Source: Sulfurospirillum sp. (lineage in GTDB: Bacteria; Campylobacterota; Campylobacteria; Campylobacterales; Sulfurospirillaceae). Taken from it: a DNA stretch of 49,302 nt. A program made the position numbers and the translations under genes. Positions 17,927-31,181 of the stretch are shown here, piece after piece. Below the pieces are notes generated by a model, which worked only from the letters and a program-made list of their open reading frames with translations, did no database searches and was not told the DNA's origin. Each line of letters opens with the position of its first letter. Positions within the stretch are counted from its first letter, which is position 1. Location of the stretch: the NCBI GenBank assembly GCA_016744795.1, contig JADGDR010000013.1:1-49302 (forward strand), in the 5' to 3' direction.

Positions 17927-18630
17927 TTTTTACTCCTGTAGAGTTCTAATAATCTTTTTACTTCTTCTGAACTATAGTATTCCAAATAAAGCTGTAAAGC
18001 TTTAATCGCATCATCTTTATTACCAAGTTTTTGTTTTGATTTTGCATAGATAAGCCAAGCAGAAGAATCACCTGATTTTAATGTACTCGCTTTTTTTGAC
18101 CAGTAAATACTTTTTTCAAAATTTTCTTTTTCAAAATAAAAATCTGCTAAACCTACAGCAGATTCAAAATTTCCTGCTGCTCTAAAGCGTTCAAGTAAAG
18201 CATCTTCACTCTTGACTACCTTTACATGTAAAATGATTTTTTTATTTTTTATAGATAACAATGTTTCATTATTTGTTTGAAACATCTCATCTTTGCTCAT
18301 AACTTTATTAGTATTTGGTAAATTTAAATTAGGTGAAAGTACGATGGTATCATATTGAATCTTCTTCAATACACTTTTTTCCTCTATTTTTAGTGCTTGA
18401 TTAATTGGCTTTATCTTTTTTACTTTAAAAATTTTTTGAGGCACTTTTTCTTTAATTATTTTGTTTACATACGGAGGTTCTTTTTTGAAATTTTCAATCA
18501 ATATATTATTATTTATAAGATAAAACATAGCTCCCAAAACTACAGAAAAAAGAAAAACTAATTTTAAATACTTTTTCATTTTCATTTTAAATACTCTTCG
18601 TTCTAAATCTTCAAATGTTGCATTAGTCAT
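17923..18630 (-). CDS. mshN: MshN-like membrane-anchored TPR protein
   Basis: A 235-aa protein with a short cytoplasmic start, one transmembrane helix at about 22-41 (YLKLVFLFSVVLGAMFYLI) and a basic, proline-containing linker. The C-terminal TPR-like repeats (about 150-232) include ESAVGLADFYFEKENFEKSIYWSKKA and KSKQKLGNKDDAIKALQLYLEYY. Topology and position, after the MshM ATPase and before MshE, match MshN, which is thought to help secretin or pilus assembly. It overlaps the preceding gene by eight bases. Confidence 0.78.
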   Translation of the reverse strand: MTNATFEDLERRVFKMKMKKYLKLVFLFSVVLGAMFYLINNNILIENFKKEPPYVNKIIKEKVPQKIFKVKKIKPINQALKIEEKSVLKKIQYDTIVLSPNLNLPNTNKVMSKDEMFQTNNETLLSIKNKKIILHVKVVKSEDALLERFRAAGNFESAVGLADFYFEKENFEKSIYWSKKASTLKSGDSSAWLIYAKSKQKLGNKDDAIKALQLYLEYYSSEEVKRLLELYRSKK

Positions 18631-19420
18631 TAATTAGTCCTAAATCTAATGCTGTCATGGTTATCAAATCTTTATGAAGTTTTTGGTACTTTTTTAAGCC
18701 GTTTAATTTTGCATAATTAAGTAATTTCATTAATATAAAAAGAAATTTTTTTATAGTCCTGAAATTTCCATCACAATATTTTGTTATTTTTTTAGCATCT
18801 GATTTTGAAAACATAGTTGCTATCTCACTATATGAATTTGCCATCAAAGAACTTTGTATATATCTATAAACCTCGTTTGTATCGAGTTTTCCATAATTTA
18901 CAATTACTTTGGTTCTTGATTTAAAATGTTTTTTATTCAATATAATAGAACCCTCTTCTTTATGCATTGACAAAACAAACTGCAATACTTTAGTGTCACT
19001 CAAAATCCTAATAAGTTCAAATTGTTCTTCATTTAAAAGTTGTGCTTCATCAATGAATATGGTATGAATAGTATCTTTATACTCTTTTACAAGCTTGTCT
19101 TTTAAAGCATTAAAACTTATTTCTCTATCAAACTCCATACCTTTTGCTTCATAAAGTAGTTTTATTAAATCTCTTTTATCAAAAAAAGGATGATTAATAA
19201 GAATTGTAAGTTGTCTGTTTTTAATCTTATCATTAAGAATTTTTAAAATATAACTTTTTCCAACACCAGGATCCCCAATAAGAAAAATTAATGATGCATT
19301 TTTTTCATCTATAGCTTCTTTAATTTTGCTCTTAGTTATTTCTGCACTACTACTATCAAAATAGTATCTAGGATTCAAATCATCTCTGAACAAAAAACCA
19401 GCTGCTTCAAAATCTCTCAT
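18623..19420 (-). CDS. mshM: MshM/ExeA-type AAA ATPase
   Basis: A 265-aa P-loop ATPase of the ExeA/MshM group, which in type II secretion and MSHA systems works in energy-dependent placement of the secretin. Walker A is GDPGVGKSY near residue 48. Walker B is TIFIDEAQLL near 116-125, followed by the sensor-like QFELIRILSD. It opens MRDFEAAGFLFRDDLNPRYY, of which a diverged duplicate survives at 30146-30286. No transmembrane helix or peptidoglycan-binding domain is fused, unlike ExeA. It is coupled to the secretin gene by an ATGA overlap. Confidence 0.9.
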   Translation of the reverse strand: MRDFEAAGFLFRDDLNPRYYFDSSSAEITKSKIKEAIDEKNASLIFLIGDPGVGKSYILKILNDKIKNRQLTILINHPFFDKRDLIKLLYEAKGMEFDREISFNALKDKLVKEYKDTIHTIFIDEAQLLNEEQFELIRILSDTKVLQFVLSMHKEEGSIILNKKHFKSRTKVIVNYGKLDTNEVYRYIQSSLMANSYSEIATMFSKSDAKKITKYCDGNFRTIKKFLFILMKLLNYAKLNGLKKYQKLHKDLITMTALDLGLIND

Positions 19421-25060: not shown

Positions 25061-25710
25061 TACCAAGACCTCTTATTTAGTATCATTTGACCTATGTTGG
25101 CTGAAGTGTAGTTAAACTGAGTAAGTTGTTTTCCTTTTTTACCTCTTTTGCCTTGATACGTTATATTTATATCTATATACTTTAAATTTGTAGTAACGGG
25201 GATTTGTGTTTTATTTTTATTGATATACAAATTAATCTTTGCACTTTTGTTTAAATAATCATAACTTATATTATCATCTATATATTTAACCTCTACATGT
25301 AAACCATATTTTGATAAATTTGTTGTGTTTTTATCGTATATATTAAAATCATCTATATCATTTTCAAATATATCATCTGTCATTTCACTACCCAATTTAA
25401 AACTTGTCGTTAAATTATGCTCGCAAGTTCTTCCACCAATAAAACCACCAATCCTATGAAATGAAGTCATGTTGCAATCAAAATATTTACTATTTGTATG
25501 TAAAATATCTCTTGAGTTTGTATTATTTTGATCCCAAGGGAGTTTTGAAATCATCCTCATCATAGAAATTCCATTAAATATTGCATCTTGACGAATGGTA
25601 AAACTATCTGCTTTGTTAAGCGACAACACTATCTTCGGAATTACAGTAAAAACTATAGCGATAATAACAATAGTAAAAATAAGTTCTATTAAACTCAAAC
25701 CCTTTTTCAT
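25060..25710 (-). CDS. Minor pilin of the msh operon
   Basis: A 216-aa prepilin with a very short leader, MKKG, followed by LSLIELIFTIVIIAIVFTVIP: Gly before the cut, Leu at +1, Glu at +5. The globular part carries three cysteines (KYFDCNMTS, GRTCEHN) and many Asn/Asp. It follows the giant MshQ-like gene with an ATGA overlap and overlaps the MshO-like gene at its end. Probably a minor subunit. The MshC/MshD slots are the nearest equivalents, but sequence does not decide which. Confidence 0.82.
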   Translation of the reverse strand: MKKGLSLIELIFTIVIIAIVFTVIPKIVLSLNKADSFTIRQDAIFNGISMMRMISKLPWDQNNTNSRDILHTNSKYFDCNMTSFHRIGGFIGGRTCEHNLTTSFKLGSEMTDDIFENDIDDFNIYDKNTTNLSKYGLHVEVKYIDDNISYDYLNKSAKINLYINKNKTQIPVTTNLKYIDINITYQGKRGKKGKQLTQFNYTSANIGQMILNKRSW

Positions 25711-28700
25711 CTAAAAGTTTTTACTCCCCTCTTTACGTTTGTAGCATTAAAATCAAAACCAACACTGCTACCGCTAAAATCTCCACTATGTATATGGTTA
25801 CCATCTATTTTAAAAAACTCATATTTAAAACAAGGATGAGTAGAACAATTTTCTAACTTATTGTAACTTTCATATTTGTTATACCAGAGATATTCAGGTA
25901 TATCTAGATGAATATATGATTGAAAATCACTATTTTCATTATGACTTAAAGTAAATTCTGTAGTTCCATTTTTTATTTGTTTTTGACCGATGTCAGCTAA
26001 ATATGCATTTTGTGAATTAAATAAAAATGTTTTTTTATCTTTTAATGTAACAGTAGAATTGTTATCATCTTCATTCACATACCAATTTAAACTACTTTGC
26101 CTATATTTTCCTAATTTGTAAACTTCTACATGTAAAGAGTTATTAATTGACTTTTTATTAGTACGTATATCTTGTGTTTTTACCCTTCCATAGTAAAAAA
26201 AAGTATTTTGATCTAACTCTTTTGTTCCTTTTGTATCGTTTTTATCTGTTACATTTATGTTTGTTATATTAAAGTAAAAAGGACTCACAGTTTTTGTTTT
26301 ATCTCTATCAAAATTAATAAAAAATGTCACTTCTGCTGTGCCATTATCATCAGTTGAAAAATGAGTCTTATCATAATTTGTTAAATTTATATCAAGACTT
26401 TTTGTTATATTTACTTTAGTAGAATTAATATCATTTTCATCGCTATAAATATACAAGATTTTATCAAGATTATTTGATAGGACACTACTATGCAATATAT
26501 TTATATCTATACTTTTCGCATAACAACTATCATTATAATTTTTTGTTGTTACATTTTGCCTATTTTTTGCTGTTATGTCTAACTTAAGTTTTGCTGACAT
26601 ATTTAAATCACGAGAAAGGTATGTAAAATCATTATAGTAATTTTTAAAACTCGCAGTTATATTAAAATGGTCTGTGAGTATTGTCATAGTTCTATTATGC
26701 TCCATTATTAGCCTATTTTCATCATTAGTATCATCGGCGTCAACTTTTGCAAATTCAGAACCATGTATTTCATGTATTCTTACGTTCACATCTCCTACCT
26801 CATTGTAGTTTACGCTTACTTCTTTTTCGCCATTTTCAAAACTAAAAGTCTCTACATGTAAAGAGCCTTTTAAGCATTCATTCTTTAAAATATTTGTTTC
26901 TATTTCAAATGAATTACCTTTTGTTTCATTGTAATTAACGCCATTTTCTGCTTTAAAATCTATGTTAAAGTCTTCTCCTGCACGTTTTTTATTTGGAAGT
27001 GTAAAATTAAAGCTAATTGGTCTAATTGCAAAATTGTCAGATGAACAAGTTATATTGTCATCTGTTTTTATCTGTACTCTTGCATCTTTTACTGCTTTTG
27101 TTACATTAAAAGTTATCTTATCTTTTTTATTTAATAAATCTACATTAACAAATGAACTTAGATAGTCATTTCCCTTTGGACAAGTACTTGCTTGAACTAT
27201 TCTTGCTTGAACGCTTCCTTTATATTCTTGAAGTGCATTATTTTTTTCATTAAGTGCAATTATGTTCAAATCAAAATTCTGCGATACTTTTTTGGTTGAT
27301 ATATTTCTATCATTAATATTTCTAAAAATATCCAAAGCATCAAAAAATGGATTTAATGGTACTTCCTTACAATTTGTTTTAGTTCTAAAAGAACCATCAT
27401 AATTTTTTCCACTATTTTCATAACCATAAATGGTTTTTATTTGTTTATCTGTAAGTTTAGTATTAAATATTTTCAGCTCATCCATTAAACCAACAAAATT
27501 CTGCTTTATGTTAAATTTTCCTCCATGACTATCTTGCTCTTGCCCTAGAATTAAACTTTTTTTGTATATATTTAAGTGACCTGTTCCAAATTCATCTTCA
27601 CACTCTAGTTTTTTTCCATCAACATACAAACATACCATATTGTACTTTCTAGTAAGAAAAATTTGATGCCATTTTCCATCAGTTACTTTGTACTCTTCCA
27701 AGTCAAAACTTTCTCCCTGATCTTTTATTTTAACATGAATACTTTTATCGTAATAAAGATAAAGTTCAAATTCATCATCATCTACAGAATTACCAAGTCC
27801 ATGAATAATTTCTTGTTGTTTTCTTTCAAATGATGTTTTAATCCACACTCCTAGGGAAAAATCATTTAAACCATTCATTGCCCTATAATCTAAGCTTACA
27901 TAATCATTTTTTGAATTTTCACTAAAATCTCCTGCTCTATTAATTTTAGATTCCGATGATGTTGTTGCCTTATTTGCTCTACCATCATAATGATTTAAAC
28001 TATTGTCCTTAACTTCATTAACAGTTCCATTCCAAACGCATTCATCAAACCTATATTCAACTATAGACTCTACAAAAGGGCAATCTTTAATGATTCTTAC
28101 AGTTCCATCGTAATTTTTACCACTATTTTCATAGTTATAGATAGCTTTTATTTGTTCATCTGTAAGTTTAGTATTAAATATTTTCAGCTCATCCATTAAA
28201 CCAACAAAATTTTGACTTCTTTTAAAATCTCCGCCATAACTATCTTGTTCTTGTCCTACAATTAAACTCTTTTCATGTACTTCTAAGCGACCTGTTTTAA
28301 AACCACTTTGACACTTTGATTTTTTCCCATCAACATACAAACATACAGTACGGCTCTTTCTAGTTAGAAAAATTTGATGCCATTTTCCATCTGTAATTTC
28401 ATAATCTTCTACATCAAAATCTTGTCCATTATTTTTTATGTTTACATGTAAGGTCTCATCTTCTTCAAGATAAAGTTCAAATTCATCGTCATTTACAGAA
28501 TCACCAAGAGCATGAAGAATTTCTTGTTGATCTCCTTCATTCGATGTTTTAATCCACATCCCAATAGAAAAATCATTTAAACCATTCATTGCTCTATAAT
28601 CTAAGCTTAGATAATCATTTTTTGAATTTTCACTAAAATCTCCTGCTCTATTAATTTTAGATTCCGATGACGTTGTTGCCTCATTTGCTCTGCCATCATA

Positions 28701-29978
28701 ATGATTTAAACTATTATCTTTAACTTCCTTAGCAGTTCCATCCCAAATACATTCATCAAAACGATAATCAGCAATCAATGATCTATCTTCTCCTCCACAA
28801 CTACTTGTGCAAGTTCTCAAAGGAGTATCATCACCCATAGCTCTACCCACACTAAGATTTGCCCAATAATTATTATAAAAATGATGCCTATCATTTACTC
28901 TATAAACATTTCCATAAAAACAATTTCCTTTTACTGCTGATGAATAATTAGATTCTATTTTTAAATCATACTCACTTGTATTAGTTATTTTATTATCATA
29001 TATAGTTGCATCTGAAACATACGGCGCAAGATATATACCAATTTTTGCCTTGCGTATACAAACATTATGAATTTTTAATGAATGTGAATTACTTAGTTTT
29101 ATTGCAATATCTTTTGCTAAAATTATGCAGTTTCTAATAGCAAGTTTTGTCCAAGCACCATAACCAAATACTATTCCTGATTCTCCTAGTCTTGTATCTA
29201 TATAGGTTTTTTCTATTATAGTTGCATTTCTATGGTTTTCATTAATATTTATTGCATTTTTTTTGCTTATTATGTTTGCATTAGTTAAATAATTAAATCC
29301 AAGTTCAAAGTTTAATCCAATTCCTTCGGAATTAATAGTAATATTACTTAAGGTATGCTCGCCATTTACACCTCTTGAAGCTTCTATGCCAGTTCCCATA
29401 CTTTTTATTGTTATGTTTTGAAAAATAATATTATTTCTAGAATTATTTATGCTTATACCCATTGAATTAGTTGAAGTTAAATCTAAATTTTTAAAAAAAG
29501 TAGCTCCATTTTTTAAATAAATTGATGAGTATCTTGAATTTATTTTTAAGTTTTCAAAGCTGTGTTCTGTACCATTTTCTATGTATATGCCTCTATTACC
29601 AGCTTCAATAATTAAATCTTTAAAAATATGTTTGCCATAAATATTTGAAACACTTACAATTCCATCACTTTTAGAAATAATTTTTAAATTATATATTTTT
29701 GAGTCATCACCTAATCGCATTCCAACTAAAGAACCACTATTTATTACTATGTTTTCTTTATTTCCAATACCTCTTAAAGTTAAATTTTTTTTACTAATAT
29801 CAACAGATTCGTTGTATATTCCTTCGCATATTTCAACAGTATCTTTAGCCTTTGCAATTTTAATTGCACTTTTAATTGTACTGTAATACTTGCCACCCTC
29901 ACAACTGCCTACAACAAGTGTTGAAGCATCTACATGTAAAGCAAAAAGAAATAAAACTAATAAAATGCATTTTTTCAT
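25707..29978 (-). CDS. mshQ: Giant MshQ-like surface protein: beta-helix, two LamG domains, MshQ-type tail
   Basis: The protein has 1423 aa. A signal peptide (about 1-19) is followed by a right-handed beta-helix at about 25-375, built from recurring short strands (GIYIENGTEHSFENL, SIYLKNGATFFKNL). Two tandem LamG/concanavalin-like domains follow at about 401-638 and 639-873, each starting YRFDEC and ending YENSGKNYDG. A long Asn/Asp/Thr-rich C-terminal half contains NFAIRP and an MshQ-like stretch (LDITAKNRQNVTTKNYN). Beta-helix and LamG domains suggest glycan or surface binding, so it may be a pilus-associated adhesin. It heads the operon, whereas MshQ ends it in Vibrio. No clear Shine-Dalgarno precedes the ATG. 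Four TACATGTA copies lie inside. Confidence 0.85.
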   Translation of the reverse strand: MKKCILLVLFLFALHVDASTLVVGSCEGGKYYSTIKSAIKIAKAKDTVEICEGIYNESVDISKKNLTLRGIGNKENIVINSGSLVGMRLGDDSKIYNLKIISKSDGIVSVSNIYGKHIFKDLIIEAGNRGIYIENGTEHSFENLKINSRYSSIYLKNGATFFKNLDLTSTNSMGISINNSRNNIIFQNITIKSMGTGIEASRGVNGEHTLSNITINSEGIGLNFELGFNYLTNANIISKKNAININENHRNATIIEKTYIDTRLGESGIVFGYGAWTKLAIRNCIILAKDIAIKLSNSHSLKIHNVCIRKAKIGIYLAPYVSDATIYDNKITNTSEYDLKIESNYSSAVKGNCFYGNVYRVNDRHHFYNNYWANLSVGRAMGDDTPLRTCTSSCGGEDRSLIADYRFDECIWDGTAKEVKDNSLNHYDGRANEATTSSESKINRAGDFSENSKNDYLSLDYRAMNGLNDFSIGMWIKTSNEGDQQEILHALGDSVNDDEFELYLEEDETLHVNIKNNGQDFDVEDYEITDGKWHQIFLTRKSRTVCLYVDGKKSKCQSGFKTGRLEVHEKSLIVGQEQDSYGGDFKRSQNFVGLMDELKIFNTKLTDEQIKAIYNYENSGKNYDGTVRIIKDCPFVESIVEYRFDECVWNGTVNEVKDNSLNHYDGRANKATTSSESKINRAGDFSENSKNDYVSLDYRAMNGLNDFSLGVWIKTSFERKQQEIIHGLGNSVDDDEFELYLYYDKSIHVKIKDQGESFDLEEYKVTDGKWHQIFLTRKYNMVCLYVDGKKLECEDEFGTGHLNIYKKSLILGQEQDSHGGKFNIKQNFVGLMDELKIFNTKLTDKQIKTIYGYENSGKNYDGSFRTKTNCKEVPLNPFFDALDIFRNINDRNISTKKVSQNFDLNIIALNEKNNALQEYKGSVQARIVQASTCPKGNDYLSSFVNVDLLNKKDKITFNVTKAVKDARVQIKTDDNITCSSDNFAIRPISFNFTLPNKKRAGEDFNIDFKAENGVNYNETKGNSFEIETNILKNECLKGSLHVETFSFENGEKEVSVNYNEVGDVNVRIHEIHGSEFAKVDADDTNDENRLIMEHNRTMTILTDHFNITASFKNYYNDFTYLSRDLNMSAKLKLDITAKNRQNVTTKNYNDSCYAKSIDINILHSSVLSNNLDKILYIYSDENDINSTKVNITKSLDINLTNYDKTHFSTDDNGTAEVTFFINFDRDKTKTVSPFYFNITNINVTDKNDTKGTKELDQNTFFYYGRVKTQDIRTNKKSINNSLHVEVYKLGKYRQSSLNWYVNEDDNNSTVTLKDKKTFLFNSQNAYLADIGQKQIKNGTTEFTLSHNENSDFQSYIHLDIPEYLWYNKYESYNKLENCSTHPCFKYEFFKIDGNHIHSGDFSGSSVGFDFNATNVKRGVKTFR
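27360..28778 (-). repeat. Tandem ~714-bp duplication encoding the two LamG domains
   Basis: Units at 28065-28778 and about 27360-28064 encode domains whose first ~70 residues are nearly identical (NSLNHYDGRA, SSESKINRAGDFSENSKNDY, SLDYRAMNGLNDFS). They diverge more in the middle, around the ELYL region, and are again alike at NFVGLMDELKIFNTKLTD. Uneven conservation along the unit points to duplication followed by partial homogenisation or by selection on the middle, exposed loops. Confidence 0.85.
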
Positions 29979-30145
29979 TAATTATGTTCTATAATCATAG
30001 ATATATTTGCTTTTTTTGTTATGTCTACAGACAACTGATAATCATCTTTCAAGATTAATCCTTTATTGTACTTTTTATTATTAAGATTTAAAAAGTACTT
30101 AATTATAACAGAATTATTTTCAAAGTATATTTTAAGGACCTATGC

Positions 30146-30286
30146 TTAAAATATGAGAGCTACAGTTTTACAATTTATTGTCTCTTTTAACTTTTTTTTA
30201 GCCATCTCTTCAGTTCTACTATCAACATAGTATCGAGAATCCATATCATCTCTAAAAATCATTCCAGCTGCTTCAAACTCTCTCAT
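30146..30286 (-). pseudogene. Truncated duplicate of the MshM ATPase N-terminus
   Basis: A 46-codon frame from ATG 30286 to TAA 30146 reads MREFEAAGMIFRDDMDSRYY and on to LKETI. It aligns without gaps to the first ~37 residues of MshM at 18623-19420, with about 22 identities, and still resembles it to LIF. It stops before the Walker A region, so it cannot be an ATPase. It is the remnant of a second, diverged MshM gene. Confidence 0.8.
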
Positions 30287-30336
30287 TTTTGCTCCATTGC
30301 TATCTTGTTGTTATCCTGCAATTAAACTATTTTAGT
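30287..30336 (-). pseudogene. LamG-domain remnant adjoining the MshM fragment
   Basis: Read on minus, the stretch gives SLIAG-stop-QQDSNGA, matching SLIVGQEQDSYGG of the LamG domains in the giant surface protein, with about four fifths of bases alike. It runs straight into the MshM remnant and, at the other side, overlaps the stop of the epimerase gene. It is the scar of a lost second copy of a LamG-bearing gene. Confidence 0.7.
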
Positions 30337-31181
30337 ATTGACTTTAAGGTTTTATTTAAGTTTCCATATTTAAAAATATATCCTTCTTTTTCTAATCTAA
30401 ATGGAACCACAAATGATCCTTTTAAAAGAGATTCAGCACCTTCTCCATACCTCATTTTCATCAAAAATGCTGGTACATTTAACCAAGCTGGTCTTCCTAT
30501 TATTTTGCCAAAAACACTCATGAAAGTCTTCATAGTAACACATTCAGGAGCTACTAAATTGTAAGTCCCTTGCATATTAGTTTCTTCTATGGCTCTTTTA
30601 AAAACTTCTATTACATCATCCATATGTACCCATGAAAATGGTTGTTTACCATCTCCTGGAATTGCCCCAAGTCCTAGCTTAAAAGCCAATTTAAATTCAT
30701 CAATAGCTCCCCCAGATTTGCCTAAAACAACTCCTAGTCTAAATACTACACTTCTAAGCCCAAATTTTTCTGCTTTTTGTGCTTCAGTCTCCCACTCTTT
30801 CGCTAAAAGAGACAGATAACTTGTAGCAAATTTTATAGAATCATCCTCGTGAACTAAGTTCTCTTTATATATCCCCACTGCTGATGCTGAAATAAAAAGT
30901 GATGGTTTCTTCTGCAATAAAGATATCTCTTTAATAAGCTTTTTTGTTGTTTCTATTCGACTTACATAAAGTTCATGTTTATATGTTTCATCCCATTTCC
31001 TAACAATAGGAGCACCACATAAGTTTATTACCACTTCACAACCGCAAAGAGAATTTGACAAAACTTCAGAATTTTCAAGATGTTCTCGTCCAATTCTCAC
31101 TACTTCGTAACCACTATCTACTAAAACCCTTGATATCTCTGTACCTATAAAACCACTAGCACCACAAATCGCTATTCTCAT
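30327..31181 (-). CDS. TIGR01777-family NAD-dependent epimerase/dehydratase-like protein
   Basis: A 284-aa SDR-fold protein with a C-terminal DUF1731 domain (E. coli YfcH type). The N-terminal GASGFIGTEISRVL is the extended-SDR nucleotide-binding motif GxxGxxG. ISASAVGIYKEN holds the region of the active Tyr. The DUF1731 part includes APECVTMKTFMSVFGKIIGRPAWLNVPAF and the end FRLEKEGYIFKYGNLNKTLKSIL. AAGG lies upstream of the ATG. Substrate unknown for the family. It is monocistronic, and its last codons adjoin the decayed LamG/MshM scar. Confidence 0.88.
   Translation of the reverse strand: MRIAICGASGFIGTEISRVLVDSGYEVVRIGREHLENSEVLSNSLCGCEVVINLCGAPIVRKWDETYKHELYVSRIETTKKLIKEISLLQKKPSLFISASAVGIYKENLVHEDDSIKFATSYLSLLAKEWETEAQKAEKFGLRSVVFRLGVVLGKSGGAIDEFKLAFKLGLGAIPGDGKQPFSWVHMDDVIEVFKRAIEETNMQGTYNLVAPECVTMKTFMSVFGKIIGRPAWLNVPAFLMKMRYGEGAESLLKGSFVVPFRLEKEGYIFKYGNLNKTLKSILK

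Follow-up and report, generated by a model that had tools for sequence, protein, structure and literature searches.

Remnants of msh genes form a scar next to the msh pilus operon in a Sulfurospirillum genome

Remnants at the start of the msh operon

Operons encoding MSHA-type type IV pili (msh) are best studied in Vibrio cholerae. The intact operon of the Sulfurospirillaceae genome analyzed here resembles them in encoding MshE with MshEN and T2SSE domains, a secretin, an MshM-type AAA ATPase, pilin-like proteins and an MshQ-like protein bearing LamG domains, and it differs from them by the beta-helix region and the two LamG repeats of the latter protein. In the window, i.e. the whole stretch of 49,302 nt that was analyzed, reading of the minus strand in all frames revealed a scar at 30344-29979 between an epimerase-family gene and this operon (Table 1), and the scar belongs to no known msh operon. 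It is bordered by the 3' end of the epimerase gene (stop codon 30329-30327) and comprises three short remnants, namely LamG' and mshM', whose identities, order and join can be read directly, and the less firmly assigned DGC', so that the order at the locus is epimerase, LamG', mshM', probable DGC' and intact mshQ. The initial annotation had located a LamG-MshM fusion at 30146-30336; these coordinates are right, and the scar reaches further toward mshQ, where it includes the probable start of a diguanylate cyclase (DGC) gene. This probable third piece, together with sister genomes in which the locus proved unstable, extends the first description. The coding pieces of the scar cannot yield a working protein; mshM' stops after 46 codons with an incomplete Walker A motif, and LamG' carries a TAA.

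Table 1. Coordinates of the features at the scar and of the related intact genes in the window.
Feature	Coordinates	Strand	Basis
Epimerase-family gene	30327..31181	-	Pfam Epimerase and DUF1731; orthologues in G001, G002, G004
LamG', remnant of one mshQ LamG domain	30287..30344	-	In-frame TAA; window scan and shuffles
mshM', first 46 codons of a diverged mshM, then TAA	30146..30286	-	Amino acid and DNA similarity to mshM
Extended -10 promoter-like box TGTTATAAT	30102..30110	-	Consensus match only
Perfect 10-bp inverted repeat GTACTTTTTA / TAAAAAGTAC, 11-nt loop	30068..30098	.	Located between promoter-like box and leader ORF
DGC', probable first 15 codons (LKDDYQLSVDITKKA) of a deleted cyclase gene	30008..30052	-	TTG start after AAGGAT
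Leader ORF of 24 codons (LKDDYQLSVDITKKANISMIIEHN) containing DGC'	29978..30052	-	TTG start after AAGGAT; direct reading
Intact mshQ-like gene, first gene of the msh operon	25707..29978	-	Pfam Laminin_G_3 (two stretches), Beta_helix
Intact mshM, source family of mshM'	18623..19420	-	AAA_22; full-length match across the family

The LamG' piece lies outside the epimerase gene over 41 nt (30327-30287), save for the last base of the stop codon, and its remaining part (30344-30328) overlaps the last epimerase codons. When the 41-nt core was compared with the whole 49-kb window on both strands, the two best places fell within mshQ, at homologous sites of its two LamG repeats (at 28267 and 27556, with 32/41 each), followed by a next place with 26/41. 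With the epimerase codons included (58 nt), the matches amounted to 44/58 for LamG2, 40/58 for LamG1 and 33/58 for the next place in the window. The local score of 67 was reached by none of 200 dinucleotide shuffles (mean 35, maximum 47), and the mshQ genes of the genus members G002 and G004 scored 36 and 36.5, respectively. On the basis of window scan and shuffles, a chance origin of LamG' was rejected. One could still argue that the LamG likeness is fortuitous or unrelated and that a truncated mshM alone landed beside the epimerase gene by ectopic insertion of a short msh fragment, given that the piece is only 41-58 nt long and includes the GGAG before the ATG, a Shine-Dalgarno-like sequence that could account for a few of the matching bases. 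However, this explanation is very improbable and already largely refuted by the scan and the shuffles, in which the LamG repeats took the top two ranks of all 49-kb positions with 6 of 41 bases more than the next one; moreover, frame and relative order agree with an msh remnant.

A search of the intact MshM against its own genome returned three places: MshM itself, a distant paralogue on contig C9 (30%) and the minus strand at 30143-30286, which showed 54% amino acid identity over residues 1-48 (E=1.5e-10) and one TAA. The coding part of mshM' spans 138 bases (30286-30149, minus strand) and is 79% identical to the own mshM over 103 nt (E=1.3e-17) or 72.5% identical without gaps over the full 138 nt; beyond it, a weak similarity perhaps reaches as far as about 30131. 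The minus-strand frame reads NSLIAG*QQDSNGAK (asterisk, stop codon), directly followed by MREFEAAGMIFRDDMDSRYYVDSRTEEMAKKKLKETINCKTVALIF and a second stop, which represents the MshM N-terminus. Thus, the claim of the initial annotation that a LamG stretch with an in-frame stop runs straight into a diverged MshM N-terminus (QQDSNGAK-MREFEAAG...) was borne out.

In the phylogenetic tree, mshM' was grouped with the mshM genes of its own genome and of G004 (support 97) and a grouping with G005 was rejected (AU p=0.017), therefore the fragment derives from the own or a near lineage. The three possible arrangements of mshM', own mshM and G004 mshM are equally likely for these 138 nt (AU 0.60, 0.47 and 0.51). 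Since mshM' differs from the own mshM at 27.5% of the sites, and own and G004 mshM differ from each other at 22%, the fragment is as far or farther from its own intact gene than the latter is from G004, which means that either the duplication is old or the fragment evolves fast. Dating the split by this tree was discarded, because 138 nt are too short to separate a recent duplication from a divergence at about the split of the own genome and G004. The changes private to mshM' are distributed over codon positions 1, 2 and 3 as 6:5:8 compared with 3:1:4 and 3:2:6 in the intact genes; this even spread would agree with a loss of constraint, albeit at too few sites and with small numbers.

The join between LamG' and mshM' lies at the mshM' start codon, with LamG similarity up to the A-run before the ATG and mshM similarity from there onwards. 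LamG2 reads GGAGGAAAATTTAAC, the scar GGAGCAAAAATGAGAG and the mshM start CTTAAATGAGAG, and the two parents have AAAT in common. At the junction of epimerase and LamG', the epimerase end AATAC and the LamG2 sequence TATAC have ATAC in common. Hence, the alignment of the junction that had been suggested as a check for short direct repeats did yield short shared sequences, and judged by sequence both LamG' joins look like short-homology deletion joins, in which the shared bases may have played a role. The counterparts in the intact operon are LamG2 at 27573-27516, LamG1 from 28284 and the mshM start at 19420; the initial estimate of about 9 kb in the same relative order is essentially right, the measured distance being 8.1-8.8 kb with strand and order preserved. 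The pieces of the putative second copy have the orientation and order of the adjoining intact copy.

The third piece had been overlooked and is the probable start of a DGC gene. It scored 48 against the start of the G004 cyclase, compared with 32 for the next best 14-mer in a six-frame scan of the window, and in a genus-wide search the best match outside the own copy was again the G004 cyclase gene, aligned start to start at merely E=0.08. The GGDEF protein of G004 begins with MKDSYKLNIEITKKVKQIIDKH and is encoded upstream of mshQ, from which a repeat and a block of two small genes separate it; a cyclase homologue in G014 begins with KRDIYALHVEITDKVKK and adjoins valS. With about 15 codons left, DGC' is devoid of the GGDEF domain that is present in the G004 homologue, and it is therefore a stump and not a cyclase. 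The TAA of the leader ORF containing this stump overlaps the ATG of mshQ by one base (TAATG). The DNA between mshM' and the probable cyclase start has no clear match. Its assignment to the end of the chemoreceptor gene that precedes the G004 cyclase was rejected, as 3/200 and 6/500 shuffles reached the score, much of which stems from DGC' itself. A 36-nt match (86%) of the leader to an AMP-ligase gene of G004 is AT-rich and was taken as chance.

The two LamG repeats of the intact MshQ-like protein (window positions 27369-28775) are 74% identical to each other, which points to a recent internal duplication, and the beta-helix region ahead of them is unmatched in the G002 and G004 proteins.

The msh locus in related genomes

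The own genome (G000) was compared with the other five genomes of the genus (G001-G005), of which G004 matches the record JALSME01, a metagenome-assembled genome labelled Sulfurospirillum. Based on UvrD identity to the own protein, G002 is the closest sister (94%), followed by G004 (90%), G001 (87%), G003 (84%) and G005 (79%, partial). The cluster is retained in G004 and G005. In G002 (L011:4441-6736), the msh cluster is gone and an msh-type mshM is absent. An mshQ stump of 526 residues with LamG domains (L011:4945-6525) begins two bases past the epimerase stop, and a pilin remnant lies between this stump and uvrD. The site is empty in G001, where epimerase and uvrD adjoin with zero genes between them (L010:10508-13539), and G003 is also without an msh-type mshM. 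Taken together, an msh-type mshM occurs in three of the six genomes and an mshQ stump in a fourth, while the other two have no msh-type mshM. These patterns indicate that msh genes were lost more than once in the genus, with some doubt for each single genome due to incomplete assemblies. Like the scar, the G002 stump lies at the epimerase-uvrD site and goes back to an msh cluster that was lost; it differs by retaining the mshQ start, two LamG domains and a pilin remnant and by having neither an mshM piece nor an adjoining intact cluster.

Among the wider family, G038, G041, G043 and G015 have one msh cluster with uvrD and two pilin genes as its neighbours, and in G043 the other side of the cluster could be seen to adjoin valS. 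The second msh cluster that had been proposed to be sought in relatives was found in none of them: a second msh-type mshM is absent from all 44 family genomes and all 399 genomes of the order (E<=1e-35 for the order). The two mshM matches in G028, a 100% complete assembly in a single contig, are overlapping parts of one gene with a TGA inside one of them (C1:1786206-1787001). The absence of an intermediate or second cluster from relatives does not exclude an event specific to the present lineage. An unrelated intact gene containing both fragments, which would have refuted the initial reading, was not found in the genus; strong DNA matches were obtained to mshM only, and the sisters lack a counterpart of the joined scar.

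The window corresponds to a complete contig, and the genome is assembled in 30 contigs, which leaves some room for pieces wrongly joined by the assembler. However, the flanking genes lie near each other in relatives as well (epimerase by valS, msh by uvrD), and the pieces have diverged from every other genomic copy and are therefore not misplaced copies, which makes an assembly artefact extremely improbable.

Contig C9 of the own genome harbors a second, distant MshE/MshM-like pair (252386-256196; 48% and 30% identical). MshE-like matches at this level exist in all six genus genomes and probably belong to a separate type IV pilus or secretion-type system.

Origin of the scar

Pseudogene scars resulting from tandem duplication and short-homology deletion are of an ordinary kind in bacterial genomes, and the present scar is a further instance of such decayed remnants. 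In common with other remnants of duplicated or collapsed operons, it lies beside the intact operon and contains shortened and diverged parts of adjacent genes, which follow the operon order, include an in-frame stop and are joined at about four shared bases; it differs by including a piece of a gene from outside the operon, the cyclase start, and otherwise in nothing essential.

The initial annotation had explained the fragments by an older duplicate of the mshQ-to-mshM interval that lost its interior. The scar is a collapsed msh remnant and such an older duplicate fits the data, but the duplication itself stays unproven, also because relatives have no second msh-type MshM. On balance, we consider it probable that the scar arose by a tandem duplication that included mshQ and reached from the DGC start to about mshM codon 50, followed by deletions. 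The position of DGC' between mshM' and mshQ suggests these limits of the duplicated unit. Such a duplication (DGC start, mshQ, further genes, mshM to about codon 50) would have created the join of mshM' and DGC', whereupon at least two deletions would have eroded the copy nearer to the epimerase gene. One of them may have connected the epimerase 3' end with the LamG domain and another one the LamG domain with the mshM start, using about four shared bases each (ATAC and AAAT). A third deletion would have placed codon 15 or thereabouts of the cyclase copy that remained next to the DNA immediately preceding mshQ.

Several observations argue for this sequence of events. The identities of LamG' and mshM' are accompanied by preserved operon strand and relative order and by a join exactly at the mshM' start codon, mshM' falls with own and G004 mshM and not with G005, and DGC' sits where a tandem DGC-mshQ-...-mshM' copy predicts it, in line with the cyclase upstream of mshQ in G004. 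The large deletions at the locus in the sisters G002 and G001 are also consistent with it. Weaker points in favour are that LamG' is closest to the own mshQ and that the present msh genes diverge in species order: MshE is 85% identical to G004 and 80% to G005, UvrD 90% and 79%, therefore the present cluster does not look foreign. On the other hand, neither a second msh cluster nor an intermediate exists in any relative, the distance of mshM' to the own gene equals or exceeds that between own and G004 mshM and the tree expresses no preference for the own gene over G004, the history is long with three deletions and one duplication, and DGC' rests on 15 codons.

Alternatively, LamG' and mshM' could have been left by a resident msh cluster that was decaying like the one in G002, before a related cluster with its DGC-mshQ upstream end came in through homologous recombination toward uvrD or mshE and illegitimate recombination toward mshM'. 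Such a replacement predicts the same order of pieces. It is also compatible with the cyclase-free G002 locus, since mshQ follows the epimerase directly there and a cyclase precedes mshQ in G004, so that the cyclase-mshQ end could be from outside; moreover, the second LamG domain of G002 appears nearer to the G004 mshQ than to the own one when compared by eye. Against it, LamG' is of the own mshQ type and not of the G002 type, the divergence of the msh genes from G004 and G005 keeps in step with UvrD and bears no foreign mark, and mshM' takes no definite place in the tree. We regard a replacement as possible but rather unlikely. A second msh segment is the likelier yet unproven reading, because a replacement leaves the same order of pieces and mshM' cannot tell the two apart.

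The importance of the scar is modest; together with the sister genomes, it reveals repeated rearrangement and loss of msh in this genus of Sulfurospirillaceae. A literature search returned general MSHA and rearrangement papers only.

Putative expression signals

The scar also marks a place where the upstream region of the present operon may be built from pieces of another gene, which is directly testable. TGNTATAAT occurs seven times on the minus strand of the 49-kb window, one of these occurrences being the promoter-like box in front of the leader ORF, and the inverted repeat in front of mshQ could be a candidate operator. It is conceivable, though doubtful, that expression of mshQ and the pilus operon now depends on the promoter, Shine-Dalgarno sequence and first codons of the deleted DGC gene and that the stump serves as a translationally coupled leader. 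In that case, expression signals that once belonged to a c-di-GMP gene would have passed to the pilus genes. A general scan for consensus promoters found sites in the region to be no commoner than in shuffles, hence the reuse of promoter and leader stays a lead.

Furthermore, the 46-codon mshM' frame or an RNA from the scar might have been kept as a functional element regulating the operon. The frame is intact behind GGAGCAAAAATG with the Shine-Dalgarno-like GGAG, and the inverted repeat and the promoter-like box are close by. However, the element is not conserved in any of the five other genus genomes, the private changes are spread evenly over the codon positions (6, 5 and 8, small numbers), which fits lost constraint, and Rfam gave no match in 29900-30500, on which ground a structured RNA there was rejected. 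A retained regulatory function therefore has hardly any probability.

In G004, the repeat between the cyclase gene and mshQ (L047, about 1500-1880) ends in inverted copies (GACTTCTTGCATAACCCCTTG ... CAAGGGGTTATGCAAGAAGTC) and resembles a miniature mobile element; it is followed by two small genes like a toxin-antitoxin pair.
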